Shown here: piece by piece, positions 11,241 to 55,529 of the stretch
Layout of the letters: each line of letters starts with the position of its first letter
Position numbering within the stretch: position 1 is the stretch's first letter
Assembly (NCBI RefSeq): GCF_008831285.2
Contig: NC_045139.1
Location: 8,278,204-8,342,203 of the forward strand
Source: Nymphaea colorata
Lineage: Eukaryota > Streptophyta > Magnoliopsida > Nymphaeales > Nymphaeaceae
Direction: 5' to 3'
DNA length: 64,000 nucleotides
Notes under the pieces: generated by a model
The model's input: the letters and a program-made list of their open reading frames with translations, nothing else
What the model was told of the DNA's origin: nothing
The model's database searches: none
Made by a program: the position numbers and the translations under genes

Positions 11241-14200
11241 ATGGCTTCCTCCGAAGGGTTCTTGCTCGATTCCGAAACAAGTTTCAGTGACGAGTTCTAT
11301 TTGGATTCTAAGTTACTAATAGATCCCAAGCTTTTGTTTGTCGGCCCGAAGATTGGAGAAGGTGCGCACGCCAAAGTATACGAGGGGAAGTGAGTACATC
11401 CGTTTCTTATTCTTCTTGTTCCGTTTCTTTTATGCTTTCCTTGGTTGATAGGTTCAGATCTCTCTTTTATGTATCCGTATCAACAATTTCATATGCCGTT
11501 CGAATAGAAGCAAGTGCGGTACAACTGAATTATCATTCTTAATGGCTGTCAAATTTGATATAAGTCAACTATTGTCCGGCGATTATGCCTTAGCCTCACC
11601 TGAGGCCGATCCTTTTTTCTTTCCGATGCAAGACTGCGGGAGAGTAGGTCTCCCAAACCTTTATTCAAATCGGAAATGAGTTGTACATATAACGACTACA
11701 GAAAACCGAAAAGTTTAGCAGCACTGTTAAAACAAAACACAATGCCCTTGTGCTTTATATCCCAGCGAGAATTAACGGTAAGGTGCAAATTAACAAGTTA
11801 ATCTGTAGCAGAAAAGGAGAAACCAGCTCTGTACATCGGACGGAACAAGAATCTGAGGCCCATCATTTGAATTTGGAAATTGTTCTGTCAAGAATTTCTT
11901 TGAAATGGATCAATTGTATGTATGACAAGTATAACAACGCGGCAGGGACACCTTAAAAGTTAAGAAATATTTGATGATTAGACATATAATAAAACATATG
12001 TAGCCTTTACGCAGGAAAAGATCATGCATTGGAATTTTCATTTTTCCAGATATAAGAACCAGAATGTTGCCATCAAAATAATTCAGAAAGGGGAAGCACC
12101 AGAGGAGATTGCAAAACGAGCAGCTCGGTTTGCCAGAGAAGTGTCTATGCTTGCCAGAGTGCAACATAAGAATCTGGTGAAGGTTTGGCATCTCTGCTAT
12201 TCCAAATTTTGTCCTATTAGACTGAATTCTTTAATTCTTATCATCTTCCTCCTTAATTCTTAGCCGATTCCTTCTGTCATTATTGAAAAGCGACGTAAAC
12301 ATTTATTGCTTTATCCCCTGTAAGTGATGCAAGGTTGTGAATTGTGATTTTTGCTCTGTAAACTTCTAGTGATGGGTGCCTACATGTGAACAGTTTATTG
12401 GGGCCTGTAAGGAACCTGTGATGGTTGTTGTGACTGAACTTTTGTTGGGCGGTTCATTGCGCAAATATTTGTTGAATATGCGGCCGAGATGTTTGGATAT
12501 GCAGGTGGCAGTCAGTTTTGCCCTGGACATTGCTCAAGCAATGGAGTGCCTGCACTCACATGGTATCATTCATCGTGATCTGAAACCTGGTAAAAATTTT
12601 TCCGAAGCACAATACTGCATTTGATTCTGCAGCAAATAAATTGACCTGGGGCTGAAATCGTGATTTTGAATATTTTCAAGCGATTGAAAATAATCAGAAA
12701 CCTATACTAGGGTTAGGCAGGCATTGGCCAGGTTACATGCCTCGGCTATTGTATTCTTGAGACTTGGCCTTAAGGCCCTCAATTCAACCCCCTACCCACG
12801 TGAATCTGAATAGATGTTTCAAACTGATTCTTCACGTTATATACTTTTATATCTTTCTCAGTGCTCAGTTATGCAATATTGATGAGCATTTACTTGGCGT
12901 AGGACGTGATTAATTTCAAAGACTTTTTTTCTGCTACTGGCCAAAAAGTTGTTTCTCTATCCATCCAGCTTCCCTGTGTTTCTTCTCATAATCAGGGATT
13001 CCTTCACTTTGTCTTGGCCTTTATTGGCTTGTATAAGCCTCCAATTATGGTAATTATCATTACTGAATCTACTTAAATGAACTTTAAATGCATGATTCAA
13101 GAGAACGAATTGTTATAATGGCTGCATTCATCTCTTTGTGCATTTGATGCAGATAATGTCTCCTTTTATATGCACTTGTGACCAAAATCTTCTCCTTTTC
13201 TCTTTTCGTTTTTTCTGTTTCTTCTAATCAATTGTATACTCTGTGTCATCCTGTTTTCATGTAATACTGTTTCAGTATTTGAAGTCAATTTCATCACTTT
13301 TTTCCTCTGGCACCACAGTTTTTCCATCTTTTCTTTTCAAGGAGACCACATTATCTCCATGAACTTCAGATGCTAAGTAAGCCATATATAAACTTCATTT
13401 GGTCTTCCAAACAGTGGGTTACGAGAAGATCACCCTGGGAATGCCTCGTAGTTGTATTGGATAATGCCACTACACATTCTGCTTGTTCTGAAAATCGTGA
13501 ATACACTTGAAGAACAGAGGAGGAATGTAACTAAGTCACCAAAATAACTTCTGCCACATGGAAGTGGGCAAAACACTGAATAACCTTGGCCCCTAAAATG
13601 ATGAAGATATCGCATAGAGTTTATATTATGATGTGCATGAAAGAAACCTGTTTACCATTTCAATCAAAGTATGTTCATCAAGCAAATGACCGAGCCCGTC
13701 CATACCTTAAGTTAGATGTTTTATTAAATTGGCAGCTGAGAGTTATAAATCCATTCTGAACCAGGATATAGGCAAAGATGCTCATTAGTCAAAACTTTTC
13801 CATCTGTTTTGCAGATGACTAGCTTTGATGTTTCAGAATTTGCCTACCCCTTTGTCCACGGTGACCTCATGGCTCACTACAGCCATGACTACTATCTGAG
13901 GAAATCCTATCTTGTGCCCCAGCTTTCTGTTCTGGTGAATACAGTAGCAAAATTTTTGTGATTGGAAGACGTCTAGCCATTGATTAGTTAGTAGCAGCAT
14001 TTTGGCCATGTATACAGGCCAAGCTGTCCAGAAGTAAACTACTAAAATAAGACTACTGCTCAACAATGACAGACTTATTTGCATTTCCCTTCACCTGCTA
14101 TCCCTTTGGACATCTATTTAACCTGCACTTTTGTACAAACCCAACTTGGTGGTAATTCGCTGGGATTGGATTTCGTCTTTTCTTATTTTTCTGTTTTTTA

Positions 14201-15218
14201 TGGTTGATTCTGGAAAAATCTTGACTGGATTCACACCATTGTTTAATTTTTGTGGAAGATATTGGTGGAAATAGTTTTTTTAGTTTGACATGTCATGTAG
14301 GCTGGAACAGCAAGTTCTTAGCATTGGAGGCCTACTATATCAAAATTATTGAGCCCTCTGCTCATTTTGCAGGACGATAATTTTTCTAACTGTCTGCGTT
14401 TTTATTTTCCATAGAAAATTTACTGTTAACGGAGGACCATAAAACTGTAAAGCTTGTAGACTTTGGTTTAGCAAGGGAGGAGACTTTAACAGAAATGATG
14501 ACCGCAGAAACTGGAACATACCGATGGATGGCTCCAGAGGTGCTCACTTCTGTTATAAATTTCTTTTTCTTGCTTCTTCTCTAAGCTCCATTAAGTTCCC
14601 AAGTTAATTGGTTCTATTTCAATGAAGTTCTTTTTCTTCTGGGTGTGCTTTTATAGTTGTACAGCACAGTAACTTTAAGGCATGGAGAGAAAAAACATTA
14701 CAATCACAAGGTTGATGCTTACAGCTTTGCAATAGTTTTGTGGGAGCTGTTACACAATCGTATGCCATTTGAAGGCATGTCAAACTTGCAAGCTGCATAT
14801 GCTGCTGCGTTCAAAGTAATCACTATCCTATTGTTTGTCTTTTGTTTCTTGTTGCAGTAGATCTTAGAAATACAGTTTCTTACCAAAAAAATCATTTTGT
14901 CAGAATGTTAGGCCGAGTGCAGACAACCTTCCAGAGGATTTGGCTTCCCTTTTGACTTCATGCTGGCAAGAAGATCCCAATTCACGACCCAACTTTAGCC
15001 AAATTGTCAAGATTCTCCAAGATTTTTTGCACACTATCTCACCTCCAACTTCTGCAGTTTCCTCTCACGTGTTTTCCTCCGACAATGTGCTCCTGCCCCC
15101 AGAATCTCCTGGAACTAGCTCTTTGATGGCTATACGAGATAACTTAGGTGAAATGACAAAGATGAAGTTGGCAAGTAAATCAAAGGGCATTTTTTTCTGC
15201 TTTAAGAAGTGCTGTTGA
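11241..15218 (+). CDS. ATN1-like Raf-related serine/threonine protein kinase
   Basis: Six exons: 11241-11389, 12050-12182, 12394-12589, 14415-14539, 14657-14815, 14904-15218. All introns are GT-AG and the phases join to 358 residues. The product is a compact plant Raf-like (MAPKKK-related) kinase, closest by memory to Arabidopsis ATN1 (At3g27560) and At5g40540. Glycine-rich loop GEGAHAKV is at 39-46, catalytic Lys59 is in VAIKI, HRDLKPEN carries Asp156, DFG is Asp175-Gly177, and [13 protein letters not shown] marks the activation-segment end. It should phosphorylate Ser/Thr in the cytosol; partners are unknown. The tail contains [14 protein letters not shown], conserved in this subfamily, and ends in a Cys-rich FFCFKKCC that might be palmitoylated (inference). 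The start is the first ATG giving the family N-terminus ([20 protein letters not shown]). Intron 3 is the longest (1,825 bp). All catalytic residues are intact. Confidence 0.94.
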
Positions 15219-16130
15219 ATTTGGTAAAGGGAGGAATCTTTGTAAAAGTGCGTGTACATGAAACTTCTGGTAATTATCTGTTCATCATGCACTGCAACCT
15301 TTTGTTTTATTTGTGGAGGGAGAGAGAGAAAGAGAGAGAGAAGTGGTACTCTTTATATATGCCTACGAGGCTGTAGTATTTTCAATATTCTGTCTTCGCT
15401 CTTCTTTGTCCTCATGTTAACATCACTGTTTGTGCGATGTGCAGAAGAAGGTGAGAACTACATTGAGAGCATGGATGCTATCTCAACCCTACATTCTAGA
15501 ATCTAAATGAATCTCAGTAATTGGATTGTGTTTTATCAAGTCACAGAGCATCTGCCCACTGACCTTTCATTGTCTTTGCTTGTTGTTGAGAGGGACTGTA
15601 TCTTTTGCCCCCATTAATGGTATATGAAGCTTTATCTGTTAAAAAAATTTTAACTTCAGATTTTGAAAGCCGACAATGGCTCCATTAGTCTGGTTGGTAG
15701 GACTGCCTTAAAGCCTCTGAGTTGAAGGAGGCCTGAAGTTCTATACCAAGGTGTGTTCTTGCCACAAGTCCAAGTGATGATTGACTTGGGGTTAAGAAAG
15801 CATATTCAGGTGTTTTACATTAACACCGCATATTCAGGTGTTTTACATTAACACCGACGCGAATAGGTCATGGTACATGTGTGCCCATGAGGCAGCAAGT
15901 TGAAACATCCAGGAATACAAAAAAGGATCTGCTGTTATTCATTTGGTCTTTTTCCTGAGTAAATTGGGGCTATGCAGACTCCCAATCAATTTAGGTTTCA
16001 AACATCCGAGTTTCACAATGCAGAAAACCATAAAAAAAAAATTTGTCCTTCTTAAAGCAGTTTATGCCTATGGCTTTTCAGTTGCTCAAGGCACCTAAAA
16101 CTCTTAAGATTTTGTAATATGAGATTATTG
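15219..16130. other. Kinase 3' UTR and spacer
   Basis: Kinase 3' UTR with a GA-rich run at about 15318-15342. No second gene. Ends at the probable LTR of the copia remnant. Confidence 0.5.
15800..15855. repeat. Perfect 28-bp tandem duplication
   Basis: The unit starts GCATATTCAGGTG and ends TTAACACC. It occurs at 15800-15827 and again at 15828-15855 without a mismatch, so the duplication is recent. Confidence 0.93.
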
Positions 16131-16415
16131 TGTCATCCACCGAAGACATGCACAGAAAAACAAGAATGAAAGAAAGAGAAGGGAAGTCCCAAAGGATAGG
16201 GACGGCAACAACAATAATTGTATGTTGAACTCTAAGATTATATTATAAAATCAATCTTTTACACCAGGGACTAATAAGTACTATTAAAACTAAAGAATAT
16301 CACAGCCATGCAATTAATGAGAAAACATAACGTTAAAAAGGAAACACCTAATATGACGTTTGAATTTGGATCCAGATCCAATCGTCATCACCTAAACCTT
16401 ATTCACGTTTTAACA
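16131..16415 (-). repeat. Probable 3' LTR of the copia remnant
   Basis: On the minus strand the purine tract GAGGGAGGG (the expected polypurine tract) is followed by TGTTAAAACGTG, and the block ends ...GGATGACA, giving TGTTA...TGACA ends. The length of about 285 bp is short but within the copia range. The outer boundary is tentative because no second LTR was found for comparison. Confidence 0.45.
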
Positions 16416-19400
16416 CCCTCCCTCAGGTTGTACATGGTCTTGCATAATCTCCAACTTGTTCTCTAGCAACCAGAACCATCCTGTTAATCCTTTAGTAAAT
16501 AAGTCTGCCAGTTTATCTGTAGTTCTAACATGTTGGGGCTCTGTCTTCTTTTCCTCAACCTTTTGTCAAATAAAATGTTGGTCGATTTTAATGTGTTTGG
16601 TCCTACTATGCTGAATGGGATTGAAAACAAAGTTAATTGCATTTTGATTGACATATAGGAGCACTGAGCAAGCAATCTTCTTCCTTAAATCATTCAATAA
16701 ATGTCTAATCCAAGTAGCTTATGTTGTGCCTATATCCATTGACCGATATTTTGCCTCGATACTAGATCATGCCACAACCTTTTGTTTTCAATTGCTCCAA
16801 GACACAAGATTATGCCCTATGAAAATATGATAACCACTGACTAATCTCCTCTCATTTGGTTCACCTACCCAATCGGCATATGTATAAGTGATTATCTCAT
16901 GTCCATGATAAGCATTGTCATTCTTATCATAAACAAGGGCATCTTTTATAATGCCCTTTTATATATCTTAAAATGTGTTTTAAAATGTATTTCACTGCCT
17001 CTATATGACTTTCTCTTGGAGCATGCATAAATTGAGAAACCAAATTAATAACATAAATAATGTTATGCCCAGTAAATGTAAAATAATGTAACATACAAAA
17101 AATGCTTTGATATCTTGTAGGATTGACATAAGCCTCCTCATCTTTAGAACTTAATCTCTGATGTAATACACTAAGAGTAGTAATCGGTCTAAATTTGTCA
17201 GGCCCATCTTTTTCCAAGAGATCAAGAATATACTTTTTTTGCATGAGTGTCAATGTGTCCCCTTGTCTATCAACCTCTACCCCATGAAAGTACTTCAATT
17301 CTCCTAAATCCTTCATCTTAAAGATCTTCATTAAAAATTGTTTTATCTTTCCCACATGCTCATTTGAACTCATTGATATAACAATATAATCAACATATAT
17401 GAGGAGAAGAGCAATGGTACATTTCTTTTGGTAGACAAATAAGGAATAATCTAATGAATATCTTCTAAAACCAAAACCTTGAATCTGTAAAGAAAAACTC
17501 TCAAACTAAGAACGAGTTGCTTGTTTTAACCTATACAGAGACCTTTTCAATTTGCACACCCAAGTGGAAGGATGTTTTTCTGCATATCTTGGGGCTTCTT
17601 CCTTTAAAATTTTGTGTAAAAATGCATTTTTAACATCTATTTGACTGAGTGTCCATCATCAATCAAAAACTAAAGATATGATGATACATATTACACCCAT
17701 TTTAACCAATGGGTTAAAAATTTCATCATAATCTTCGTCATATTGTTGCGTGAAACCCCAAGCAACAAGACGTTCCTTATATCTTTCAATGCTCCTATCA
17801 GGTTTATATTTATTTTATAAACCCATTTGGAACCAACATCGTTCCTTCCTTCTGGTTGTGGTACCACATCCCAAGTCTAACATTCATGAAGAACTTCCAT
17901 TTCTTCATTCATAGGTTCAACCCATTGTCGTGATTTGACAACTTGATTGAGAGAGAGTGGCTCATCTTGCTTTGTGAGTTGAAACATAAATAGTTAAAAT
18001 CAAGAGAAAATGTATGATGACTCACCCATTGTTGAATTGGATGCCGAATACGATTCAATCTTTGGCCTTGTTCAGTAGTGGTTACCTCTAGACTACTTAG
18101 CCCCTTTTCTCTGGCTTGTTTGACATATACTTGTCCAAAAAAGTGCTCAATAAGATGTTCTTCATAGGTCTGATGGTTGCTTAAAACCCTCACTACTATT
18201 CGAGGATGAATCGAATGGTAGATTGACATGTCTGCTCCATATTGGTAAAAAGATCAGCACTCAACCATGGATCATACATCTCCACCATCATGGGTTGCAC
18301 TTGATTTGACACATCCATGCCAAAATCATGTTCATCAAAACCATTTCTAGAGGTTCTAATACATTTTGAAGTGGATCATAACACTGATATCCTTTATACT
18401 TGTTAGCATATCTTACAAATATGCACTTTGCCGCCTTGTCCTGAAACATACTTCTCAAAGATGAATCAAGATGCACATAACTTACACACCCAAAAACACG
18501 TAGTTCATTATAACATAGATGTTGATCAAACAAAATACCATGAGATTTCTTGTTCAAGATGGACACAGGGAGACAATTTATAATGTAGGCTAATATATGA
18601 AAAGCCTTCGTCCAAAGGCTAATGGGCACATTACTGTCATGTAACATGCTCATAATACTTTTTACTATATGACAATGTTTCTTTCTGCAACTTCATTTTG
18701 TTGTGGGGTATATTGGTAAGAAATATGTCGTCCTATTCCATTATCTCAAAGAAAGCAATAAAATTGTTTGACATATACTCTCTCTACCATCACATTTCAA
18801 ATGCACAATATGATAGGAAAATTTTGTTTTAATCATAAAATGAAAATTCTGAAATATTTGAAATACTTCATGCTTATGTTTCATGAAATATATCCAAGTA
18901 TAGCAGGAATATGAATGAATGAAAATGACATAATATCAGCTTCCAGATAAAAAAGGAATAGGAGCGGGTCCCCAAACATCATAACAAACAATTTTAAAAT
19001 GTCTCGACACTCTGTCATTAAGAATATGAAATAGAAGAACGTGACTCTTACAGAGTTCACAACTCGAGCACTTCTTAGACTTAGAAGGAGGTGGCAAACT
19101 AAACTTTGGAATAAGATTGCTAGAAACAAGACTTTCAATAAAACTTCTACTACAATGACCCAAATGATCATGCCAAAGTTTTGGCTTATTACAATAGCTA
19201 GACACTCAACAATTACAATAAAAAGCTTTGACGACTCCCAAGAAGGCTTTGATGGCTCCAACTGAAGAACAAGGATTGAAGAAACTGAAGAGTTGATTGT
19301 TTTCTCCTTGAAAACATACATGTCTCCACGTCATTCCCCCTCAGGGAACATCTCCTTTGTTTGAATATCCTTAACATAGACAAACAAAGAAGCAAATTCA

Positions 19401-20698
19401 ACAGTTGAGTGCATATCATCGACAAGTTTAGCAACAAACACAATATTCTTTTTAATGTTAGGAGTGAGAAGGACATTGAACAAAAGAAGAGATTGCTAAT
19501 ATGACTGATGGAGTGATGAGATCCATCACTTGTAACTATATTACCTTTCCCAAGATAAGGAGATAGGTTAGATAATTTACCTACATCGCCCGTCACATGT
19601 GAGGCTGCCCCTGAATCAACATCACTGTCCTTGATTATTCTGCTTGAACGTCATCTGTGATATGGCTAACAATAAGACCTAATGTATATCTCTTGGTAGT
19701 ATCCTCGTTCCTAGGGAGTTAGCTGGTCTATTTTTAGGCTTTTGCATTTTCCCTTTATTCTGTGGGTTAAACCAATAATTAGCTTTCACATGGCCCCTTT
19801 TATTGCATTGAAAGCATGTAGGGATTCACTTTTGATGTCTTATAGTAGCCTCGAAATGATGGATGTAGGCAAAATGTCTCGTCCTCCATGTCCAAAGCGA
19901 CCTCTACCCTTACCTCCTTGATGTCCTCCATTCTCTCGTTCATAACCTACTAAAGTCTCTGTAGCAAGCACTCAATAAAAACTGGTTGAATCTTTCTCTT
20001 TTGCTCTCTGCTTCACGATATTCTCGTGAAGAAGAAGCTTTGTCTGTAGTTCTTCAAAGTGGGCAGTTGCGGAACAGTGCTATAGTAAGCATGAAAAAAT
20101 CAGGTCCTAAGCCATTTATAAGCTATTGGACTTTGTCCTCATCTGAAATAGCACTACCAATGACTACCAACTGATTGGTGACGGCCTTCATGCAACCAAT
20201 ATACTTTATGATTGACATCGAACCCTTCTTCAAATTCTGAAATTCTTTATTTAGAAATAGAAATTGTACTTCTGATATCTGAGAATAAGTCTGAGATAAA
20301 TTAGTGCATAGCTCTGTTGTAGTGTAATCATCTGAAAGAGTAGCCAATACTTATTGAGAGAGTGTCAAAGTGATGTGGGCAACCAAAGATTGGTCACGTT
20401 TTCTCCAAGATGTATATTCTAGATTTTTTGTGAACTTGGAACGTGTGGCACCTTTCTCATCCTTAGATTCATATACAATAGCCTTCGGTGGTGTTGGAGC
20501 GGAACCATTGAGATGTTTATCGAGATATTGACTCCGTATAAACGAAAGTATTTGTCTCTTCCAGGTCAAGAAATTAGAATGAGCGAGTTTTTCAGTGACT
20601 AGTTGATCCAACACCAACCATCATTCTCATGCACCCAAGAACCAAATAAGCGGGAATCGATCATTATTATCCAAAAGTCCGACCCGCTTTTCTGCCAT
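16131..20698 (-). mobile_element. Degraded Ty1/copia LTR retrotransposon
   Basis: Minus-strand fragments in copia order gag, protease region, integrase, RT, RNase H. Gag lies at about 20617-20100 (LAHSNFLTWKRQI...), with a zinc knuckle at 19771-19820 reading CFQCNKRGHVKANY, so the last Cys is Tyr. The gag-pre-integrase region is at 19205-18960 (KLWHDHLGHCSRSF...CSSCELCK). The integrase C-terminal part is at 18653-18290. RT is at about 17400-16927, where the catalytic YVDD reads YVDY (17386-17397). RNase H lies near 16820-16560 and includes a SSIEAKYRSMA-like stretch and PIQHSRTKHIKIDQHF. Many stops and frameshifts separate these, so the element is dead. No 5' LTR or primer-binding site is visible at its right end. 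Confidence 0.88.
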
Positions 20699-20792
20699 CT
20701 TCTCCAACGGGGATTTGGAGGCGGCAGAAGGTGTGCGGAGCCAGAGGCCTGGCGCTTTGGAGTGTGATCGTAGCAGCCCTGCCGGCGCAGGA

Positions 20793-23700
20793 ATGCAGGA
20801 CTCCGACAGGAAGCGCAAGAGAGGAAAGCGGAAGCGGGAGCTCCGTCATGACGATCCCCCTCCTGCTGACGTCTCTCCGAAGTGCCGACGGCAATCATCA
20901 TCCGCATGCCCTAATCCTAATGCCAAAGGATCGTCCTCTTCTTTTCTCGAGAAGGTAATTCTCAATAATCTCCGTCTTTGTTGTCGTTCATCTTCTCGTC
21001 CCCATCCATTCCGTTGGGTCCTTTTAATTTCTGGGGCGTCCTTTCTGCTGAAAACAAACAACTTGCAGATGAGAGCGAGGCTGTCCGGCGGTCATTTTCG
21101 GATGCTTAACGAGAAGTTGTACACTAGCAAGTGGGTTTCTCCTTCTAGAAGACCTTTCTTTGAGGCTGACTCTTATTTTGTGTAACTGGAACGCTTCTTT
21201 ATGCTTCAGTATATATAGGGATGTTGTACAGTTTTTTTTTTTTCTTTTCTTTTCCAGTAAGGTTTTGTAATGTTTAAAGTTCCCAGTTACTCATTTTGGC
21301 TATAGTACAGTGCATCAGCGCCCTCTTTGTTGTGCTTTAGCTGTGATTGGTTTACTATTGCTAGTTTAAACATTCATGCCTTATGCATGTTATTTAGAAC
21401 GCAGAAGTACTATTTCTGAACTTCTTTTATTCCTGCACTTTTGCTTTTTGTAGTGGAAATGAAGCATTCGATCTTTTCAGGAAGGACCCTGCCCTATTTG
21501 ATGTGGTATCTTCGGACAGCTTACACTTTTTGCATTTTTCTCTTTGTTTTCATTTGATTATTTCTCGTGCGTGATAGAAACTGATGCAACTAGGATAAAC
21601 AGTTTCCATGCCAATACGTTGGGTTCTTTCATATGAACAGTGTTTGAGTACCTGTTTCGTCACGGGATAGAAAGTAAGGAAATCCTGCAGTGGTTGGTTA
21701 TGTGCCCAGAATCTAGATGACCTTCTTACTGTGATGTTCAAGGCTTCAAGCTGAAGCCAAACATTGATGAGTTACTTCGAAATAGTCATGGTTTGTTTCT
21801 CTGTCGGGTCTTCAAGCTGTGACAAGGTTTTGGTCCCATTCGTAACTTGAAGAGAAAAATGAGGGACTATGTTTGCAACTTTTCTTGGATTTTTGAAGCT
21901 GCTGTGATGTTTAGCAAAATGTTGGTCTCTTAAAGCAAACTTGGCCTTTGAAAAGGTTACAAATCTGGCAGTCTCTTTTGAGTATTATTTATTGGATAAC
22001 AATTGCACTGCTTTTTCATTGTGCTCTGCATGCAATTTTGACATATTCTTTCTCCTGCAAATAAAAAAGTTTATGTTAATATGATCAGACTTATGTATTG
22101 TTCACTAGGCTTTCCCTAAAGTTGCGTTGATATCTTTAAGTGTGATCCGTACAAACTACTAAATGCAGAGTTTTTAGGGTCTTAGAAATAATACATTGAT
22201 TGCTATTGAGTGCAGAGTTTTTAGGTTCTTAGAAATAATAAATGATTGAAATCCATAGTAAAAATAAGGTTTCAATCAAATTGAAGAGAAAAAAGAAACC
22301 AAAATCAGATCCAGCTACTTGCAAAGGTCTGAAATCATTTTTGCCAAATTAATGGACCTAGCTGATTGGTTGAACTGTAACAACTTTCAGTTATTGTATC
22401 TTTTTTCTTTTGCAACTGACTTTTGACGTTATGTTAATTCTGACATTATGTGCAGTCCTGAGCCCTTGCTTTATAATACACAATGGGAACTGATAAATGG
22501 AACTCTTTTAAACTTTAAAGTAAGGAGAAAAAGAAACGAAAAACAGATTCAGCTACTTTTGCATACGAAGGTCTGATGTCGTCTCTGTTGAATTAATGAA
22601 CCTAGCTGGTTGTTGAACTGATTCCATTTTTCTATCTCTATTTTTGTTGCATTTATCTTTTGGCATGATGTTACTTCTGATCTTATGATGGAAGGTCCTG
22701 GGTTTAGATAAATGAAACTGAAATGATAAATGGAACTGGGGATAAGTGTTTATTCCTTTGATTTGAATGATGTGATCATGACTGGAGATTAAAAAAATGA
22801 AAATATAATGCATCAGCCTATGCATAGGAACGACTTGAATGTAGTTATATGTTGGACATTTTTAGAAATCTTGAAGGGCTTGTCTAGACACCCATGTCCT
22901 TTTACTATGAATTTTTCATCCTTCTAGTCTTTTTAGGTGTCATGCTGAGATTTGCCATGTTAAGCACTTAAAGCAATTTTGGGTTGGGCCATCACAGTTT
23001 CTAATGAAGCCAAGCTCAACATACGGTCTTGGGTTTCAACATGTGAGAATGTGTATTTAACGCCCTATTTGTGTTAAAAAAAATTTGCATATAGCCCTAC
23101 ATTGAAAATTTAAGAAAGTTTGAATGGATTCTATGCTCATGTCTTATGCTAAAAAAGTGTACTCATGGGTCTTAGTATTTTTGGTTGGGATCTGAAGCTG
23201 ACTAGGATTAGATTGAAAAAATCAACCATAGAGCTATGTCACATAGGTATGGGTACGGGTGTTGGTGTGGGTACCGGTACTGACCATTTTCAAAAAACTT
23301 GGGTGCGGGGGTACGGCCGTATATATATATAAACAATAAGAAATACTTAGAAAATATATATCAAAATAAAGAATATACATCAACATAAACAAATAAATAA
23401 CATAGAAAATATATATCAACGGCTCTTGCAGTAGTGTGTTTTAGAAACCTATGAAAAACTTTAAACATATGGACAACCAAGCAGCCCCTTAGTCAAATAT
23501 GAATAGCAATCAAATTTTCACATCCAAAGAATAGAATAAAAAATAAGGTGAAAAAAATTAAATCAAAGTAAAATTAAGCAGTTTGGATCTATAGGTACCC
23601 AAGTGTCAAAGTACCCATTTTAGGTACCGGTACAGCGACACGGGTATGTGGACCTTACTGAAGTACCCATGTGACTTAGCCATAGAGGGATTTATGTTAA

Positions 23701-26649
23701 TCCTGGATTGGGTTATCACAGGTTTTGAGGAAAAGGTAAACAAATAATTGCAACAGGTTGCTATATGACTAGAAAAAAGAAATGCGGCAGGTCTCTATGT
23801 CTTCTTGGAATGAAAGAGAAGTTCTATTGTCATATTTGATTAAGCAAGGCCATATTTCAATCTTTTGACAGTTCCTAGCCAAAATGTCCATGCCAGTGAG
23901 GAAGTCCAAGTCTGATCTCGTTAAGCTTCTTAAGACTAAGAATGTTAACAATGTTAGAAGCTTGGAAAAGGAAAAGAACATGTGGTTACCATCATTCCCA
24001 TTAACCCTGTTTTCTTTGAAACTTAACTGAAGCTGTTTTCTTTGAAACTTAACTGAAGTAAGAAGGCTTCAATCAAACAGCTGCATGGTTCTGTGAAGTG
24101 TGAACAGATAATGGACACCTCAAAATTTCTTAGAATCCTTGGGATTTTGAATTCATAGAGTTTTCACAAAATTTAAGGTGCTGAAAGAGTCCAATCAAGC
24201 TTGCTTTTCCCTATGGCCCATTTTGGTGGAGTAATATGGCTTTGTATTTAAATTTTCTTGTCAATGTTATTGATTACATTCAGCAGTAGGAGTATGACAT
24301 TAATGTGCACTTCTGAAAATTGATATCTGAAAGCTTTATGCTATATGGCTCAGGCATCTGATCTTCTTATGGTTTCAGTATCATTCTGGATATCAAGAGC
24401 AGATGTCTCACTGGCCAGTACAGCCTGTGGATAGCATAATCAAGTGGCTTAAAGATCACAGCTCTTCGTTGGTGGTTGCTGATTTTGGTTGTGGTAAGTG
24501 TGTGGAGACAGCTTCATGGGCCTGTTGAAAGGATAAATATGTCTAAATTAACCTGATTTTTTGTGGGGTGATAGGTGTAGGTGAAGCCTGTTTCAATATA
24601 TATTCATTTTTTTGTATATAGCAAATGCCTTCGGTGCTTGACTAATCCAATTTAACTGTAGGAGATGCACGCATTGCAAAATCTGTAAAGAATGTTGTTT
24701 TCTCCATTGACCTTGTCTCAAATGATCCGTCTATAATTGCTTGTGACATGTCTAAGGTATGTTTCCTGTGTCTTGGTTGTTTAGTTTGTAATGTGAAATT
24801 GTGAACTATCAAATGCATTATAATGTTTGTAATGCGCTAACATTCCTTCTTGCTTATGTCATCCATAAAAAATGGCAATAGTTGTGCCTTTGTGTCCATG
24901 AATGTGTCATTAGAACTTATAGGTACAGGTGTTTGTGTGCATGATTAAATCCCCTCTTTCTATGTGATTCAACTTGCTTAAGTGTACCTTGCTGTGAAGG
25001 TGTGACAATTATCAGCTTAGGTTGCAAAATATTCTCAATTCTTGATGTTTCTCAGTTCTGTAATCATTTTTTATGATATTATGATCAGATTTAATGCTGG
25101 TCCTGTGTATTTATGGGATGAATTCATAAAAAGATACTTTTTGAGTATCATTCCAATTTTATCAGAAACCTTCGATTCTAAGACTTGGCACTCCTCTCTT
25201 CTTTGTTTCTATTATGTTTCTTGCTTCCGTTTCAGTATTTCTCTTACTTTTTTCCTTAATTATGATCATCTTGTTAGTAGCCGTCTGATTGTGATTCTGT
25301 TGTATATCCTATCTGATGGAGTAATGGCACTGGTCATGAGTTGGAACAAAATCGTCCTGGGTTCAAACCTAATCTTACCATGCATAAGTTGCTGTAATTT
25401 TTGTAATTTTGTCGACCATTGCTTATTCGTTTGCTCAGACAAAGTGTACCAATCTACTCCTTAGTTTTGCAACCCTGAAAACATTTATAAGCTGTTCCTT
25501 TGGCATATGGATGCAAGCTAAGTCTGTTTTCTACTCCTTAGTTCAGTTTTGCTAATAGTTGAAATACAAAATGTGTCGGGTTGTTGATTATCCCTAATTG
25601 GAATCTCTCCTATTGGTGAAGACTGGTTCTGAAAGGCTAAAACTTAGTGCATGCAAACAAACATCCGCATGATTTGATCTTTGTTCTGGAGTCTTTGAAA
25701 ATTAATTTGTTGGCCCTACGTGGAATATCATGGAATTGATCCTCACATTTTTTTATGAGAAATGCTGGTGTCGTTCACTGCTCGTCTCCTGCACCAAGAT
25801 GTTGGCTGTTGACGCATCAAAATGGTGATAAGATTGTACTAGTGGAAAAATTTACAAATTTTGTATATGCATTTCAAGTAACAGTTGTACAAATAATAGT
25901 TTGCTGTGGAGTAACTTGATCACAGGATCAAACTCAATGTCTAGGATTTGCAGTCTCTGGTTCTTGATTGCCATCATTTGCAAATAACTTTTTTTGCTGG
26001 TCTGTTTTATTTCCTCGTGTCATCTTGACCACAGACACCTTTGGCTTCCTCGTCAGTGGATGTTGCTGTATTTTGCCTTTCCTTGATGGGCACAAACTTC
26101 CCAAGTTACCTTGAGGAGGCTCATAGGGTGCTTAAGCCAAGGTTATCAATCTTTTGTTAATTGGGAAAGTTTTCACCTTAGGCAGGAGGATGTCTATGTT
26201 TTCTGAAACTGTAATTTGTTTAACTTTATGTGTCCACTTTATGTCAGTGGATGGCTATTGATAGCGGAAGTCAAGAGCAGGTTTGACCCAAATAATGGTG
26301 GTGCAGATCCTAATATATTCTCTAAATGTGTCCACAAGCTTGGATTCAGTACAGTGTCCAAGGCAAGTGCAAGCATACATGTGTAATTTATAGACCTGTT
26401 TTGGAAAACCTTGTACTAATTGTATGACTACATGCAGGATTTCTCAAATAAGATGTTTATTCTTCTTATATTCCGGAAGATGGTATAGTGCAATATATGT
26501 TGGTTCGTTTGCAATTGCTTGCTGTTTCTAATATGCATAATCTTTAACACAATTTATAAATCGTCTTGCTGATGTTTCAGGAGGCGAATACATTGAAGAG
26601 CAACATTCAGTGGCCAAAATTGAAACCCTGTTTATATAAGCGACGGTGA
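20793..26649 (+). CDS. RRP8: RRP8-type ribosomal RNA-processing methyltransferase
   Basis: Nine exons: 20793-20954, 21069-21130, 21454-21505, 24379-24493, 24662-24756, 26035-26141, 26248-26362, 26438-26482, 26581-26649, joining to 273 residues. Intron 7 (26363-26437) has a GC donor (AAG|GCAAGT); the others are GT-AG. Yeast Rrp8 and human nucleomethylin are SAM-dependent enzymes that make m1A in large-subunit rRNA in the nucleolus. A basic N-terminus ([11 protein letters not shown], residues 5-15) is a likely nuclear or nucleolar signal. [19 protein letters not shown] opens the conserved domain. SAM motif I is [13 protein letters not shown] with DFGCGD at 127-132, followed by [15 protein letters not shown] (175-183) and a [12 protein letters not shown] block. 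It ends [12 protein letters not shown], as in plant homologues. The ATG at 20793 is the only in-frame ATG before the domain. A copia remnant ends about 100 bp upstream. Confidence 0.94.
22138..22625. repeat. Short duplications inside RRP8 intron 3
   Basis: Two duplications. Near 22160-22195 and 22213-22245 the phrase TGCAGAGTTTTTAGG(G/T)TCTTAGAAATAATA recurs. The segments 22285-22380 and 22527-22621 share GAAAAA(A)GAAAC, CAGATCCAGCTACT, AAGGTCTGA and ACCTAGCTG(A/G). Function unknown; probably local duplication. Confidence 0.65.
23234..23679. mobile_element. hAT-like MITE, family B copy 1, in RRP8 intron 3
   Basis: The 446-bp element starts CTATGTCACATAGG and ends CCATGTGACTTAG, giving inverted ends CTATGTCACAT / CTAAGTCACAT. 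It is flanked by a perfect 8-bp repeat, CCATAGAG, at 23226-23233 and 23680-23687, typical of hAT transposition. The interior is AT-rich with repeated GGTAC(C)GGTA-like motifs and a TATA run. It has no transposase. Confidence 0.8.
24007..24058. repeat. Perfect 26-bp tandem duplication in RRP8 intron 3
   Basis: The unit starts CTGTTTTCTTTG and ends AACTGAAG, at 24007-24032 and 24033-24058, with no mismatch. Confidence 0.92.
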
Positions 26650-39716: not shown

Positions 39717-39761
39717 TTATTTATTTATTTATTTATATTTATATTTATATTTATATTTATG
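39651..39761. repeat. Complex CT / TA / TTTA / TTTATA microsatellite
   Basis: A CT tract, a long TA run, about six ATTT units, then four TTATAT-type hexamers, all within gene B intron 1. Confidence 0.93.
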
Positions 39762-40099
39762 ATTAAAATGACACATTTAAAATCGAAAACCTCATTGACT
39801 TAATACATATATATATATGCATCAAGTCAATCAGGTTTTCGCTTTTAAATGTTTTAACCTTAATCATCAAAAAGTTAACAGTTCCCAAAACAATATAATT
39901 TTGGTACTTAAAAAAAATCAACATTGTTTATGAAACTGATTTAAATTTAAACTTGTTTTACACTAAATTAGTAATTATAAACTGTTAGAATGTTGATCTT
40001 TTGTTACAAATATATTTAAAAGAAAATCAGGTGGTCCTTTTCTTTTTCCTGACATTTATGGTCTGTGTGTATATACATACATACACACATACATATGTT

Positions 40100-40290
40100 T
40101 GTGTGTGTATGTATGTGCATTTGTATAGTGGAAAATTTATCGTATATTGCATCCTATTTTTTTTCATAGAGCAGCAGATTTACATTAAGGAGAAGCAATG
40201 ATTTTATATAGTAATATGTGAAAATTTATCATCTATTTCATCAAATTTTCTGCATAGAGGAGCAGATTTTCATAAGGAACAATGATTTTA
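40100..40290. repeat. Imperfect tandem repeat near the 3' end of gene B intron 1
   Basis: The phrase GTGAAAATTTATC.TCTATT.CATC.ATTTT...CATAGAG(G)AGCAGATTT recurs with a period of about 95 bp (from about 40130 and 40225). A related copy lies in gene A intron 1 (33400-33500), so the repeat predates or accompanied the gene duplication. Confidence 0.6.
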
Positions 40291-42600: not shown

Positions 42601-42814
42601 TATAGTTTAGATGAATGGTGAGAGGTAAGAAAATATCATAAAAGCTTTAGAAAGATATGTGAAAATCATTCCACATTTGGGGCAGTAGATAAGGCTTAAT
42701 CCCACTATATATAATTTAGATGAATGGTGAGAGCTAAGAAAATATCATAAAAGCTTTAGAAAGATATGTGAAAATCATTCCACATTTGGGGCACTAGATA
42801 AGGCTTAATCCCAC
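42601..42814. repeat. 109-bp tandem duplication upstream of GDSL gene C
   Basis: Two head-to-tail copies, 42601-42709 and 42710-42814. They include TTTAGATGAATGGTGAGAG and ACATTTGGGGCA(G/C)TAGATAAG and differ at only a few bases. Confidence 0.93.
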
Positions 42815-43247: not shown

Positions 43248-46200
43248 ATGGCTGCCGAGCTCCGCTTGCTTCTGTTGCTTGTTTGCTGGACGGCGCTTGC
43301 TTCTTCGAGATGTGAATTCCCCGCAATCTTCAACTTCGGCGATTCGAACTCCGACACCGGCGGCCTCTCGGCCTCGTTCGGCGAGGCTGTCCCTCCCAAC
43401 GGAGAGTCCTTCTTCCACGGACCCGCCGGAAGATTCTGCGACGGCCGCCTCGTCATCGACTTCATCGGTACGCTTCCCCCTCTCTTTCCTTGAGCGTTTG
43501 AGTTCTTTCTATCTTTCTCGCCGGCCAAAACAGCGTCAACCTCAAGGGTGACGCTCACTACTGTCACCACGCTCCTCTTTTGAGGCGTGGTGTCCAGGGG
43601 CGGCGCTACACTTTCCTGGCCGTCTCGCGTCGCCCAAGGTTTTGTTTCTCTCTAGTGAGAGCTCCCACGGTTGGAAAAGTTCGTTGCTAAATGGACATGG
43701 ATTTGAAATTCTGGAATCTGAAATCTCAGTTAATCAAACACACACTTGAAGTAATGTTTGGCACAGTTTTGAGGGGCTCCTATCTGAAATCACATGTTTT
43801 TTTTCCTATTGATAATGCTGTGATGTGTATCACTAACATGCATAACCGGCCGATATCTGGCCAACTTTTTCCATTTAAAAATGAACTAATAAATATTTTT
43901 GAAATACTTAACGAAACAAAGGAACACTTATTTTCAATCTACGTATCTGCCAAAGTCTGCAGCTTATTATTCCAAAATAACATTGCCTTCCCTCATCTAC
44001 TTGGCGAAAGTGAAAGAAGAAAACAGGTTAAAGCTGTGCGGGATAGAAAGTCTCTTCATAATTCATATTAGTCGGCAGAGAGAGAAACAAACAAGACGGG
44101 GGTGCTCAAAATTAGGAAGAGGACAAAAAAGGTTTGTTTAAAAATAAAAATAAGGAAAATAAACTAACAAACAAACTGGCTCTTACTTTTTTTGGTCTAA
44201 TATATCGGCTCAGCTTGTCGGACCTGAAACACAATGGTCCTAGCTAAAAATAAGTTAAAATCCTAGGCAGAACATAGATGGGTTCAAGTTTGATCGGGTC
44301 AGCCTCAACTCTTTTTACTGGCACTTGACAATGGAATCATTAAAATAATGTTTCATGAGTTTATCCTAACTAATCTTAAGGCAAAGACAGATTCAGAAAG
44401 CATTAGGATGCAATGTTTAATGAATCTGTTCCTATTTTTTAGAAATAGATTTATGAAACACTATGTTGATTTTTTAGAGAGCATTTGAAAGTTTGGTAAA
44501 ACTATTTATGCATATACATATTTTTCTTGTTTAAACATGTTATTTGAGTAAGTTAAACTATTATGACCCATCACTCAAAAAAGAGAATCGAACCCCTTCA
44601 TGTATATTGAGTTTAGGGCTGCGTCGAAGCCTGCAGGTAACATTGGTGTATGTTCAGCTAAATGCGGCCACCCTTAAAAATATATAAGTCGGACATTTAA
44701 AAAGAACCGGCCGATCATAAGCATCTGACATTTTTTTCACCCGAGAATTTTTTTTTCCGTGAAAAGGTTTACACGATGTTGCGGAACATGAAAATTTTAC
44801 AATTGATGCTATCTTTAAGATAATTGACAACCAAAAGCTTATTTGATATAGCACTTTTGTCATGGTGTTCGATGGGGGAAATATTTCCAGGAAAAATAGT
44901 CAAACCCCATCAGAAAGACATTCAATCGCTGTATTGTTCCTTCAACTTAAAAGATTTCCTCTGCGTACTATTTTCTTCGCGTGGACGTCATTATTGGCAA
45001 AAACTTATTTTAGAACCGTCGTTTTCTAAACCTATTGTGTGGATGTGTTTGATTATAAAAACAAGAACCTACAATTAACCGACACATGCATGTGCCCCTG
45101 CAATTAGGGCCGGGCATCGGCCCCAGTTTGGGCTTGAAAAGACTGGTTTGTGCTTTATTTAATATTATTTTTTATTTTAATAATGATATATATTTTATTA
45201 TTATAAATAAATTTGATATTAAAAATCTTTTATTTTATATTTAAACAGTACTTTTTTGTTTTAACCGAGCTGACTTTGGGCTTGGGTTTTATTTATTTGT
45301 AGTCAGGTCAAATCTTTATTAGATTGCAGTTTGATATTGGATTTGGATTCGAAGTCAGTTATCAAATTGTATATCAAATCCGAAGCCAATCAACAATAGA
45401 TCCAACCATGTAACCTGTTCACTAATCTGAGTCCAAAACTTTGGACCATTGCTCCTCCAAGCTGTTTAAGGTCATGGGCTCAAATCTCATGAGTGTATTC
45501 AGTCATACTGCTTCCAACCTAAAATTTTCTTTTCTTCAAATCACGTAGAGAAACGAGTACTTTATGTCAACTGGAAGAATTTGTATGTCATTTAGTTAAA
45601 TTTAGTATAACTTCCAAGACTAACATGGTCTGGCAGGGTGCATGTAGAAGGCACGTTGCCAACATTCTCGTTCATAAAAAGTCTGAGCATGACATCCTAG
45701 TTCATAGGTGTACCGTACCCCACTCAACTCCTGACCTGTCACATAGGTGCCGGTGCCGGTGCGGCACATTCCCAAAAATTTAGGTGCGGTGAGAATATTT
45801 ATTTGTTATTATTAATTTATTATTATTATTATTATATATATATATATTGTTATTATTAATTTAATATATATATATATATAGACACATATAAGAATTAAGA
45901 AATTTAGAGTATACACTATAATCTATACACTCTACACAACACGTTTTATGAATAAATTATATATGAATATTACATACTTACAAGTTATAATGTATTGTGT
46001 ATATGAATGTAACATATTAAACATTAACATGGTTACAAAGTACAAACATTAAACAAGTAAACAAAAAACAACAAAACCATGACATAACACAGAAATGGAA
46101 AAAAAAATTTAAACCTCCTTTTAACGTTAAAATTTTTAAAAATAAAAAATGTCAAAAAAGGACAAAAATAGTCTTGACGAAGTTTGACCATACATGACTC

Positions 46201-48865
46201 GAGTCAAACGCAAGTCGGGTGTGAATCCAAGCCGCACCCGCACTAGAGTCGTGTAGAGACGGGTGCAGCAGTCAAATTGCAAAGTCAGTGTGACTTAGCT
46301 CCACCAGGACCAAGGTGGGAGAATCAAAGGGCTTCCATGTGTTCGTTATGGTAGGTTGTTAACCTTCCGTTCACCGAAACAAAGTAAAATGCAAATATGA
46401 ATTTATGAATATAAAAATTCATGTTACCTGCAAGGAAGTAGAATTTTAACAAAAATGGAATACATGGAAAAGAAATTTCACTTTACTTTAGGTATGGGTG
46501 ATTGTAGGAAATAAACATCCACCATATATATGTGTGTCCGTGTGGATGTGTAAGTTAAGAAAAAAAAAAGTTAATATATTTTGAGATTATTCTTAAAGCA
46601 GCCAAGATTTTCCTCCAATTGAAAACTGTTGTGTGACCAAACAAGGGTTTGATTTCTAATGCCAAGATGTGCAGCAAGAATTCATTCTCCTTTTACTTGA
46701 AGGTCTTAAGTCCAACTTTCATCTCCATGAACAGAACTTTGTTTGGCCATGGGGAGTCTCCAACTGGGAAATAACAGAACCCAGCTAATCTGTTTCACAG
46801 TAAAACCACTACTTTGAGATGATCAAATGAGAGTTTAAAAAAAAAAATTGAATACAGGACAAATCCATGTATAAACAGGAAAACACTCCAAAATTTGGAT
46901 CATCTCCTATTTAAACCAATTACCCAATTCACTTCTTGATGTTGCAAATTTCATTCTGATATATCTTTGTTACATGTTCCAAACCTTCTGATATGTGTTC
47001 AATTCACTGAACTCCTTTTATTCATTAGCATTATATGATTCTGCTTGCAGCCCAACACTCTGGATTACCATACCTCAACGCCTACCTTGACTCAGTGGGA
47101 TCAAATTTCAGCCATGGAGCCAACTTTGCAACTGCGGGATCAACTATTCTTCGACAGAACACCACCCTTTTCCAGAGCGGGTTCAGTCCTTTCTCATTAG
47201 ATGTTCAGTCATGGCAATTCAATCAGTTCAAAACGCGAGGGGGTGTCGCGTATGGAAAGGGTAAGTTTCCCCATTTCTGTGATTAGCATTCAAGACTCTG
47301 AAATTCTCAATCAGTGTGTTTATCGTTTCTTGGACAGGTGGAGTTTACAGGGAATTGCTGCCCAAGCAACAAGTATTCAGCAAAGCACTCTACACATTTG
47401 ATATAGGCCAGAATGACCTCACATCTGGGCTGTTTCGTAACTTGTCAATAGATGAAGTGAAGGCCTATATCCCTGATGCTCTTGCTCAGTTCTCTGATGT
47501 AGTTAAGGTAAGTACAGCGATGATTACTCTCAAATTATTGTATTACTTGTTACTGTTGTCCTTCTTCTTCTTCTTCTTCTTCTTCATTTAGAAGGGATTT
47601 GAGACCTTCAGAGAGTTATTTTGCTGATTAATGTTCCTTATGAGCAATAGAGATCCATCTTCCTTTGTGGCCCAGGGCACTAATATAAGAAATTAATGGC
47701 CGGATGTTACTAACAGATAGTGGGAATGTCAACTTCTTTCAAGAATATGATTTGGCATATCACATTAATAGGGATCCGTCACTTCATGTTCAACTTTCAC
47801 TAGGGCAGACAAGCCTGTGAAGCACTTTCTCACAAAGAAAGGAGACTGCATTTTCTCATGTGCTGCAAGAGTTGTCAAAATTGTCTTTTCGGAATGTATG
47901 ACTTATTTTTTCATGGGAACTGACAAGCAGAGATGTAGTTTTCATAGGAAAAGCTTTCTCTTCAAAGACCAACATGGTAATCCTCCACTTTCTCACTTGC
48001 AAACATGGCATGGAGATTGGAGAAGTTAAAATTTCCTAGTGACATACTTTCTGCTGTAAACCGCAGTTTGCAGAAATCAGCTAGTTGAATCTGCATGTAT
48101 GGTACAAGGGAAATCTTATGAAAGTGATTGTGGCCGTGATTTTCCAGGGAATATATGATCAAGGAGGGAGGTCATTCTGGATCCACAACACCGGTCCATT
48201 CGGGTGCCTTGCATACGTCTTGGAACGCCTGCCGGTTCTGGCTTCGCAAATAGACCAAGCTGGGTGTGCCACCCCTTTCAACGAGTTGGCACAGTTCTTC
48301 AATGAGAAATTGAATCAAACAGTGGTTCGGCTGAGAAAGCATTTTCCTCATGCAGTATTCACATACGTGGACGTTTACTCTGTGAAGTATGAATTGATTT
48401 CTCAAGCCAAGAAAAATGGTGCGTATGTTATGGGCATCTCTATATATTCACATCTGCATCTGCTGTCTAGATTTTTTACTTTCTTCATATCATCTTCTGC
48501 GCAATGCAATCTTCTTTTCTATGGCTCTATAAAGAGTTAGTAGAACAGGAGAGATGGCTTTCACATCTAATTTCCAGATTTTGGTGTTTCTGGATTTTGC
48601 AGGATTTGGGAACCCCTTGAGGGCATGCTGCGGGCATGGAGGCAAGTACAATTATAATATGAACTTGGGGTGTGGAGGGAAGAAGAAGGTGGCAGGCAGA
48701 CAAGTGTTGGTGGGGAGCTCGTGCGCAGATCCATGGCGTTATGTCAACTGGGATGGAGTCCACTACACGCAGGCCGGAAACAAGTTCGTGTTCGATCACA
48801 TCGTTGACGGCAAATTCTCAGACCCACCTCGGCCCCTGCGGCTTGCATGCCACAAACATATCTAA
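43248..48865 (+). CDS. GDSL esterase/lipase C (SGNH hydrolase)
   Basis: Five exons: 43248-43467, 47051-47260, 47338-47507, 48148-48418, 48603-48865; all GT-AG; 377 residues. Signal peptide-like LRLLLLLVCWTALAS opens the protein, followed quickly by the catalytic block. Ser33 in FNFGDSNSDTGG, Gly96 in GANFATAGS, Asn169 in DIGQND, and Asp341/His344 in NWDGVHYT complete the SGNH set. The conserved CCGHGGKYNYN...GCGGKKKV segment and a DPPRPLRLACHK C-terminus fit the FXG1/ENOD8/At5g14450 group. It has the same exon pattern as A and B (210, 170, 271 nt inner exons) but is clearly more diverged, so it is the older member. Intron 1 is 3.6 kb and holds a MITE. Expected to be a secreted ester hydrolase; the substrate is unknown. 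Confidence 0.93.
45735..46298. mobile_element. MITE-like TIR element, family B copy 2, in GDSL C intron 1
   Basis: The left end CCTGTCACATAGGTGCCGG and right end CAGTGTGACTTAG are related to those of the element at 23234-23679, and the interior has the same GGTGCCGGTGCGG-type motifs and TATATA runs. Target duplications are too decayed to call, so boundaries are approximate. Confidence 0.55.
47560..47586. repeat. (TTC)n microsatellite in GDSL C intron 3
   Basis: A run of about eight CTT/TTC units, not part of any coding exon. Confidence 0.9.
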
Positions 48866-53447: not shown

Positions 53448-55529
53448 ATGAAGGAGTGTGTGCGCGGGATGCCGGAGAATGGGTATTACTCCTGCAAGAA
53501 GACCGATGACATCTGTGAAGACGTCTGCGGCGAGGTAGATTTTCCCATCATAATTTTTTTCCTTCCTTCTTCTTTACTTTATGAAGAATATGAATTTTAA
53601 TCGTGGCATTGTTGATCTTTCTCTTTTGCTTGTTGATGGTTGTTGTCTGATTTGGGCTTCGTGGACTTGTGAAGAAACCCCATTCCTTTGTACTCCTTTT
53701 TCTTTTTTCTACTTTATTTTTATATTTTTTCTTAATGGAAGGAAGAGATGGAGGGAGCTGTGGAGGGCGGTTTTCAAATTTGGGTGGTCTTGTTTGCACT
53801 TTTTTGGGCCATTGTTTTTTTTCTTCCTGGATGACAGACAAGGGAGTGATAGATTCTTGGAATCATGTTGTTGCGCGATGGGTCTGCGGATCTTTCTGGA
53901 CCTCCATTGCTTAAAAGATGTGTTTCGTTCAATGGTGTTTTAACAAAGAATGAAAAAAAGGAAAAGTCGAAGCTAATTTATTCTTTTCCTTTTTATGTAT
54001 TCATTGTTGTTGGTTCACGAGAAGAGGTGCTGAATGTTCTTCTTTCTAATTTAAGTTATTCTGAAAATTGTATCTTTTTTATCTTTCAGATCATGACTTT
54101 GTATTGCAATTAGTGGGCTAAAATCTGGATGAAATTACTGCTGCAAGGTCCTTCTGTGTACGTTTATGTTAGACCATTGAGTTTGGTCCTTCAGTATTTC
54201 ACTAACTACGCTGCCATTAAGTTTCATATTACTGATTTCACTTATTTCTCTTCATGATGAACATCATTTTGTTGCGGTTCTGTTTTTCCTAGTACGATGT
54301 TAAAAATGGGCATGGGATCAGAATTTGAGGCTTTCGGAGCTTTGTGTGATGATTAATAGGAGGATTCTATTATGGGTTGTTAAATCGCTAATTTATCATC
54401 TAATCTGTTACCCATTTCTAATTGATAGGATTCAACTCGGGCCGCAATGAGTTTGTCCAGGATGAAATGCATTTGCAGAGGGTTGAATTTGAGATTGTTT
54501 CTCCTTCTATTTGCTGGTGTTCCACTGTTTATACTTGTGATCTATTTGCATGGACAAAAAGTTACATATTTCCTACGGCCTATATGGGAATCCCCACCAA
54601 AACCATTTAACATGATTCCACATTACTATTACGAGAATGCATCCATGGAGCACCTATGCGAGCTTCATGGATGGGGGATCCGTGAGTCACCAAGGCGTGT
54701 CTTTGATGCAGTGCTTTTCAGCAACGAATTGGATATTCTCAGTATCAGATGGAAGGAGCTAAACCCTTATATATCTCACTTCATTCTCCTTGAATCGAAC
54801 TCCACATTCACAGGTCTGCCCAAGCCTTTTGTGTTCCAGAATAATCGACATAAATTCAATTTCGTAGAGCCTAGACTGACCTATGGAACGATTGCTGGAA
54901 GATTCCGGAAGGGAGAGAACCCTTTTGTTGAAGAAGCATATCAACGGGTTGCTCTCGATCAGCTTCTAAGAATTGCAGGCATAACAAATGATGATCTTTT
55001 GATCATGTCTGATGTTGATGAGATCCCAAGTAGGCACACAATCAATCTCTTAAGATGGTGTGACGAAATCCCTCCTGTTCTGCACCTCCAGCTTCGGAAT
55101 TATTTATATTCCTTTGAGTTCTTAGTTGATTATAAGAGCTGGCGTGCATCAGTACACAGGTATCAAGCTGGTAAAACAAGGTATGCACACTACAGGCAGA
55201 CAGATAATATGTTGGCAGATTCGGGATGGCATTGTAGTTTCTGTTTCCGCCATATTAGTGAATTCATATTTAAAATGAAGGCATACAGTCATGTTGATCG
55301 AGTTAGATTCTCTTACTACTTGAATCCATCAAGAATTCAGGATGTCATTTGCAGAGGGGCAGACTTGTTTGAGATGTTGCCAGAGGAATACACATTCAAA
55401 GAAATTATTGGAAAGTTGGGGCCCATTCCGAGTTCATATTCAGCAGTTAATCTTCCATACTATGTCATTGAGAATGCAGACAATTACAAGTTTCTTTTGC
55501 CTGGTAATTGTTTACGTGAGACTGGCTAA
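53448..55529 (+). CDS. GT17 beta-1,4-mannosyl-glycoprotein beta-1,4-N-acetylglucosaminyltransferase (GnT-III-like)
   Basis: Two exons, 53448-53534 and 54429-55529, joined in phase 0 by a GT-AG intron of 894 bp; 395 residues. Exon 1 encodes the short conserved N-terminus ([21 protein letters not shown]). Exon 2 opens [12 protein letters not shown], then a transmembrane segment at about 52-69 ([18 protein letters not shown]), making a type II, Golgi-style membrane protein. The catalytic domain has [51 protein letters not shown] and a DVDE metal/nucleotide motif at 224-227. The family includes mammalian GnT-III, which adds bisecting GlcNAc; plant members' real acceptor is uncertain. Another in-frame ATG seven codons later (53469) fits the usual family start and may be the true one. 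No damage is seen. Confidence 0.94.

Follow-up and report, generated by a model that had tools for sequence, protein, structure and literature searches.

Our results suggest that the ATN1-like kinase, RRP8, GDSL and GT17 genes found together in a 64,000-nucleotide stretch of the water lily Nymphaea colorata (the window; C2:8278204-8342203, where C1, C2, C3 and so on are contigs of the same genome) belong to an old gene neighbourhood that has a second, differently preserved copy on C3. On balance, we favour the idea that a single block of at least eight families (ATN1, RRP8, GDSL, GT17, SGF29, CFM9, DUF707 and SOG1-type NAC) existed in an early angiosperm and survives in two remnants, one at C2:8.29-8.33 Mb and the other at C3:3.39-3.59 and C3:5.10-5.53 Mb. 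At least four Arabidopsis regions (At3g27, At5g40, At5g14, At3g01 and perhaps At1g67) would then descend from it. In more general terms, the arrangement is quite probably a gene neighbourhood that was inherited from a common ancestor and then altered in each lineage by duplication, loss and rearrangement, and not a functional cluster.

Within 44 kb, the window holds an ATN1-like kinase gene, an RRP8 gene, three tandem GDSL genes and a GT17 gene, all on the + strand. The first-pass annotation of this DNA had proposed the four families in this order, on this strand and at these coordinates. Exon models built on splice signals and protein-family homology bear this out, and Pfam confirms each family. 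The ATN1-like gene, a protein kinase gene of the Raf-like MAPKKK family, occupies 11241-15218 (+) in six exons (11241-11389, 12050-12182, 12394-12589, 14415-14539, 14657-14815 and 14904-15218) and encodes an intact product of 358 amino acids that matches PF07714/PF00069. The RRP8-type methyltransferase gene (20793-26649, +; nine exons, 273 amino acids, intact) matches PF05148 with an E value of 2e-82 and has a GC donor at one intron. At the far end, the GT17 (beta-1,4-N-acetylglucosaminyltransferase-type) gene (53469-55529, +; 388 amino acids, intact) consists of exons 53469-53534 and 54429-55529, the second of which matches PF04724 (E 2e-183). In this last case the earlier model, an open reading frame at 54429-55529 (+), was right for the second exon and had overlooked the first. 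The biochemistry of these products, as a kinase, an rRNA-processing methyltransferase, an esterase and a glycosyltransferase, would follow from family membership alone.

The three GDSL esterase/lipase genes (G1 to G3) form a tandem array of adjacent homologues, in one orientation (+) and with a common plan of five exons. G1 (31337-35351; 393 amino acids) and G3 (43248-48865; 377 amino acids) are intact and match PF00657. G2 (36517-42101) has a frameshift in exon 1, where it is one base shorter than G1 directly after the GDSNSDTG codons (36660-36690), and its exons 2-5 are open; the break is either that of a recent pseudogene or an assembly error. G1 and G2 are tandem sisters, with 82.5% amino acid identity and a synonymous divergence (Ks) of 0.32, and constitute a young tandem pair, while G3, about 50% identical to both, is an older duplicate. 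Note that a 109-base unit is present between G2 and G3 in two head-to-tail copies of 97% identity (42597-42814).

By itself, the adjacency of four families is weak evidence. We searched the genome, covering 407,766,735 bases in 783 contigs, and found a partner region on C3. The closest paralogue of the window kinase lies at C3:3391677-3397836 (84.6% amino acid identity over 350 residues; Ks 0.90 by the NG86 method, 350 codons) and that of GT17 at C3:3509110-3511043 (87% amino acid identity; Ks 1.18, NG86, 359 codons). These two paralogues are 111 kb apart, and the chance expectation for a random place that close is 0.0006; the pair is not a product of chance. The N. colorata genome, described as 409 Mb on 14 chromosomes, has undergone a whole-genome duplication, whose Ks distribution peaks at about 0.9 by an estimator other than the one used here (PMC7015852). 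ATN1 and GT17 behave like genes of the blocks left by this nymphaealean event, since each has its nearest paralogue on another chromosome, at a Ks near the published peak. Unlike in such blocks, just two anchor pairs are present in the compared stretch, together with a distant GDSL pair, and the order is rearranged. Conserved order over several consecutive pairs was not seen, and C2-C3 would fall short of the four pairs in a row that were required for blocks between genomes (PMC7015852).

The GDSL relatives on C3 are found 1.66 Mb further along the same contig, as two genes at C3:5.17-5.19 Mb. They are the closest GDSL relatives and group with G1 and G2 (support 99). The tree contained eight sequences, of which three are partial (G2, C3b and the outgroup) and from which the relatives on C1, C5, C7, C8 and C10 were left out. 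GT17 is represented in the genome by three full genes and three short fragments. The GT17 gene on C14 was considered as a partner and rejected (61% amino acid identity, saturated Ks). The three fragments lie at C1:18.20-18.28 Mb and are apparently the remains of one or more decayed genes.

Thus, one region is present in duplicate, on C2 and on C3. Its C3 version is without RRP8 and has GDSL at a long distance from GT17. A second RRP8 was not detected: the genome search gave two exon matches, both to the window gene, and since it saw two of the nine exons, a decayed copy is possible. No GDSL or RRP8 match was obtained in the 131,153 bases of C3:3390501-3521653 (tblastn, E up to 0.01), and the window with 20 kb of flank on each side had nothing in common with this interval beyond ATN1, GT17, repeats and general kinase-domain matches. 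These results bear on the proposal that the window shows the intact state from which the Arabidopsis arrangements arose. This is too strong, because the region has been duplicated, no RRP8 was detected in its partner, where the GDSL genes are 1.66 Mb away, the order of ATN1 and GT17 relative to their strand differs between the copies, and the GDSL array includes the recently duplicated G1 and G2. The window is one of two altered copies of a duplicated region; that it represents by itself an unduplicated ancestral state was rejected when the partner was found on C3. Note also that Nymphaea, which had been proposed as one of the species for comparison, is the window's own genus and is not free of later duplication.

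The content of the C3 copy was then compared with the expected neighbourhood. C3:3390501-3521653 holds ATN1, a weakly AI-2E-like open reading frame (below the Pfam cut-off), a lectin kinase, NPH3, NAC, CRM and GT17 genes. The CRM gene has its closest relative, among ten genome matches, at just 51%. Four marker families were named before they were searched for: DUF707, copine and SGF29, and then GHMP kinase. DUF707, a family with about seven genome loci, was found 64 kb beyond GT17 on C3 (chance expectation 0.002), which gives the order DUF707, GT17, CRM, ATN1. The sole genome match of SGF29 is 74 kb from the C3 GDSL pair (chance expectation 0.0004). Copine is present at C3:5.533 Mb.

These figures bear on the idea that the families were brought together in this lineage by rearrangement, and that the Arabidopsis pairings are coincidences among multi-copy families. 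Some pairing is indeed expected, the GDSL and kinase families being large (at least 70 PF00657 exon matches and 119 kinase-query matches), and the lack of conserved order between C2 and C3, the lack of a marker family near the window and the failed prediction of the GHMP kinase, detailed below, would fit such an assembly. Yet the full GT17 genes number three, a single locus was detected for RRP8 as for SGF29, and nevertheless they or their neighbours co-locate. Together with the expectations given above for ATN1 near GT17, DUF707 and SGF29 on C3, and with the interleaving seen in apple, this makes chance quite unlikely.

Next, we turned to Arabidopsis. Five of the eight loci cited in the first-pass annotation for the pairing of these families are found in print with a fitting identity. 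In published work, At3g27560 is ATN1, At5g40540 is a kinase, At3g27540 is GT17 and At1g67830 is FXG1, while At5g40530 is presented as a gene of ribosome assembly and rDNA heterochromatin and not by the name RRP8. Two loci, At5g14450 (presumably GDSL) and At1g67880 (presumably GT17), were not met in the literature, where they were searched only in combination with other terms. At5g14480 we take to be GT17; the locus was not found in the literature searched.

Also in print, CFM9 is At3g27550 (PMC7352785), between the GT17 gene At3g27540 and ATN1 At3g27560, and SGF29 is represented by At5g40550 and At3g27460. By Arabidopsis locus number, the SGF29 loci adjoin ATN1/RRP8. At3g27470 is presumably a DUF707 gene, and no paper confirming this was found in the literature searched. 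When C3 and C2 are set against At3g27460-At3g27560 and At5g40530-At5g40550, by locus number and with At3g27470 as the presumed DUF707 gene, the linkage is matched: C3 has the order DUF707, GT17, CRM, ATN1, and C2 has ATN1 beside RRP8. The differences are that C3 is without RRP8, that its SGF29 is 1.6 Mb from GT17 and that, compared with the At3g27 region, C3 has the NAC, NPH3 and lectin kinase genes and the AI-2E-like reading frame in between. The Arabidopsis order is better preserved in the C3 copy than in the window.

The second group of regions comprises At5g14420-At5g14490, At3g01600-At3g01650 and At1g67800-At1g67900, compared for the RGLG copine, FXG1-type GDSL, GT17, SOG1-type NAC and NPH3 families. 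As published, RGLG1, RGLG2 and RGLG5 are At3g01650, At5g14420 and At1g67800, NAC085 is At5g14490, NAC044 is At3g01600, and At3g01620 is annotated as a member of the beta-1,4-N-acetylglucosaminyltransferase family, that is, as GT17-type. By locus number, NAC085 lies near At5g14480, the presumed GT17 gene, and NAC044 near At3g01620. The window shares with these regions its GDSL and GT17 genes, and C3 shares a NAC and an NPH3 gene near GT17 and a copine gene 345 kb from GDSL. They differ in that the GHMP kinase is elsewhere, that the copine is loosely placed and that the correspondence with At1g67 is largely presumed; At1g67900, for example, we take to be an NPH3 gene, and in print it is given as a 'signal transducer'. 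The literature searched contained no paper naming this block and no candidate-gene table joining these families.

In apple, a table of notable genes is available for 0.68-5.35 Mb of chromosome 9 (Table 6 of PMC3953208). By best Arabidopsis match, its 26 chromosome 9 rows fall into At5g13-16 (nine), At3g27-29 (six), At3g01-02 (four), At5g39 (one) and elsewhere (six). The At3g27-29 rows (1.45-3.22 Mb) are interleaved among the At5g13-16 rows (0.68-5.01 Mb), and one of the At3g27-29 rows is a GT17 gene with At3g27540 as its best match. The printed selection differs from the window in that ATN1, RRP8 and an FXG1-type GDSL are absent from it. Of these printed rows, 15 of 26 belong to the two regions of the first-pass annotation, and 20 of 26 do when At3g01-02 and At5g39 are added. 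This addition was made after reading the table, on the assumption that both are duplicates of the two named segments. With the content of C3 and the apple rows, the claim that the Arabidopsis fragments derive from one ancestral block gains support for At3g27/At5g40 and for At5g14/At3g01; for At1g67 the support is weak.

Several observations weigh against a single ancestral block. The apple rows are the authors' selection, with one locus repeated and with no row for At1g67, so that a formal probability computed from them is to be read with caution. ATN1 and GT17 are co-directional on C2 and also on C3, but which of the two comes first in that direction is reversed between the contigs, therefore rearrangement must be invoked as well as duplication. 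Nothing in the window or in 20 kb to either side of it matches the CRM, NAC and NPH3 genes of C3. These genes were paired with Arabidopsis loci post hoc, by family resemblance: the CRM gene was likened to CFM9 and the NAC gene to SOG1/NAC044/NAC085 after the C3 genes had been seen, and these assignments are our assumption. No marker family is found near the window, the nearest DUF707 on C2 being 2.9 Mb off, and SGF29 and copine have no match on C2. The copine linkage on C3 is loose (345 kb from the GDSL pair, at one of about six plant-like loci). The GHMP kinase, predicted beside GT17, has six genome matches, none of them on C3, and its match on C2 is 10.3 Mb from the window. Another match, at C1:37.10 Mb, lies 85 kb from a SOG1-type NAC gene at C1:37.18 Mb (C1:37095583-37182775), a family with five genome loci at the threshold used. 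This pair resembles At5g14470, which we take to be a GHMP kinase gene, and At5g14490, and the At5g14470-14490 fragment may have descended from C1. Finally, some 1.5 Mb separates the two pieces on C3, and the C2-C3 Ks of the GDSL genes is 1.7-2.7 or saturated, which looks older than the duplication and off its peak.

Part of this evidence could be explained if the ancestor had two or three distinct neighbourhoods (ATN1-GT17-CFM9-DUF707, GDSL-copine-SGF29 and NAC-GHMP kinase), which were partly joined in the water-lily lineage to give the present C2 and C3. The gap between the two C3 pieces, the pairing of NAC and GHMP kinase at C1:37.1 Mb and the older look of the GDSL pair would all be expected from such a history. 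But the window unites ATN1, RRP8, GDSL and GT17 in 44 kb, and apple chromosome 9 mixes At3g27-29 with At5g13-16 genes. Moreover, SGF29 goes with ATN1/RRP8 in Arabidopsis, by locus number, and with GDSL on C3, which is simplest if all of them were once together. We regard separate origins as a real but minority possibility.

A third explanation would be a co-regulated functional cluster, for example in cell-wall or glycan metabolism, held together by selection. The FXG1-type GDSL and GT17 are both glycan-acting by family, and a conserved non-coding block lies 119-257 bases before the start codon of the kinase (10984-11122, +). It shares 77% identity with C3:3398007-3398143, near the identity of the exon matches (77-84%). 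The kinase, the rRNA methyltransferase, SGF29, the CRM splicing factor and DUF707, however, have no known common pathway, and the partner copy has come apart, which makes selection for a cluster highly improbable.

Returning to one common ancestral block, we infer the following order of events. An early angiosperm chromosome would have carried ATN1-like, RRP8, GDSL, GT17, SGF29, CFM9-type CRM and DUF707 genes close together, probably with a SOG1-type NAC gene. The whole-genome duplication in the water-lily lineage would then have produced two copies. The C2 copy, seen in the window, would have retained ATN1, RRP8, GDSL and GT17; the C3 copy would have lost RRP8 and split into two parts about 1.5 Mb from each other, one with ATN1, CRM, NAC, NPH3, GT17 and DUF707 and the other with SGF29, GDSL and copine. 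Independent duplications and losses in the ancestry of Arabidopsis would have left the fragments listed in the first-pass annotation.

The remaining features of the window lie outside or between these genes. Two single-reading-frame genes occupy the flanks, outside the tested block: a UDP-glycosyltransferase gene (2370-3953, +) and a DYW-type PPR gene (59465-61777, -). Between the kinase and RRP8 are the remains of a copia-type retrotransposon (16927-19650, -), whose reverse transcriptase (16930-17505) was identified by Pfam and the rest by eye; no long terminal repeats were found when direct repeats of at least 40 bases were sought in 15300-20700. Plastid DNA in the nucleus is represented at 696-1282 (-) by a petD exon and its group II intron domain V, with the petD piece at 696-1259, and a long rpoA-like open reading frame just left of the window (locus L036, 9349-9999), recognised by eye, is also plastid DNA. 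No tRNA genes were found in the window.

Four of the genome searches also matched 15 small contigs of the assembly. In 14 of these (C54, C571, C250, C221, C137, C507, C671, C136, C726, C517, C658, C300, C75 and C226) the matches contain TAG or TAA in frame and in no case TGA, while that on C467 is free of stops. Such a pattern would be expected from a ciliate-type genetic code, in which case these contigs would be contaminants.

Conserved, fractionated blocks are well known, and no concept is changed by these results: the window is useful as a marker of gene order, but of an ordinary kind. Early-diverging angiosperm genomes fix gene order as it was before many later duplications. A block that has single members here (RRP8, SGF29 and the CFM9-type gene) and that ties together several Arabidopsis regions is a concrete, checkable anchor, and it helps to tell orthologues from duplicates in the GT17, GDSL and ATN1 families. 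If the block of at least eight families is real, it can anchor the reconstruction of ancestral angiosperm gene order.

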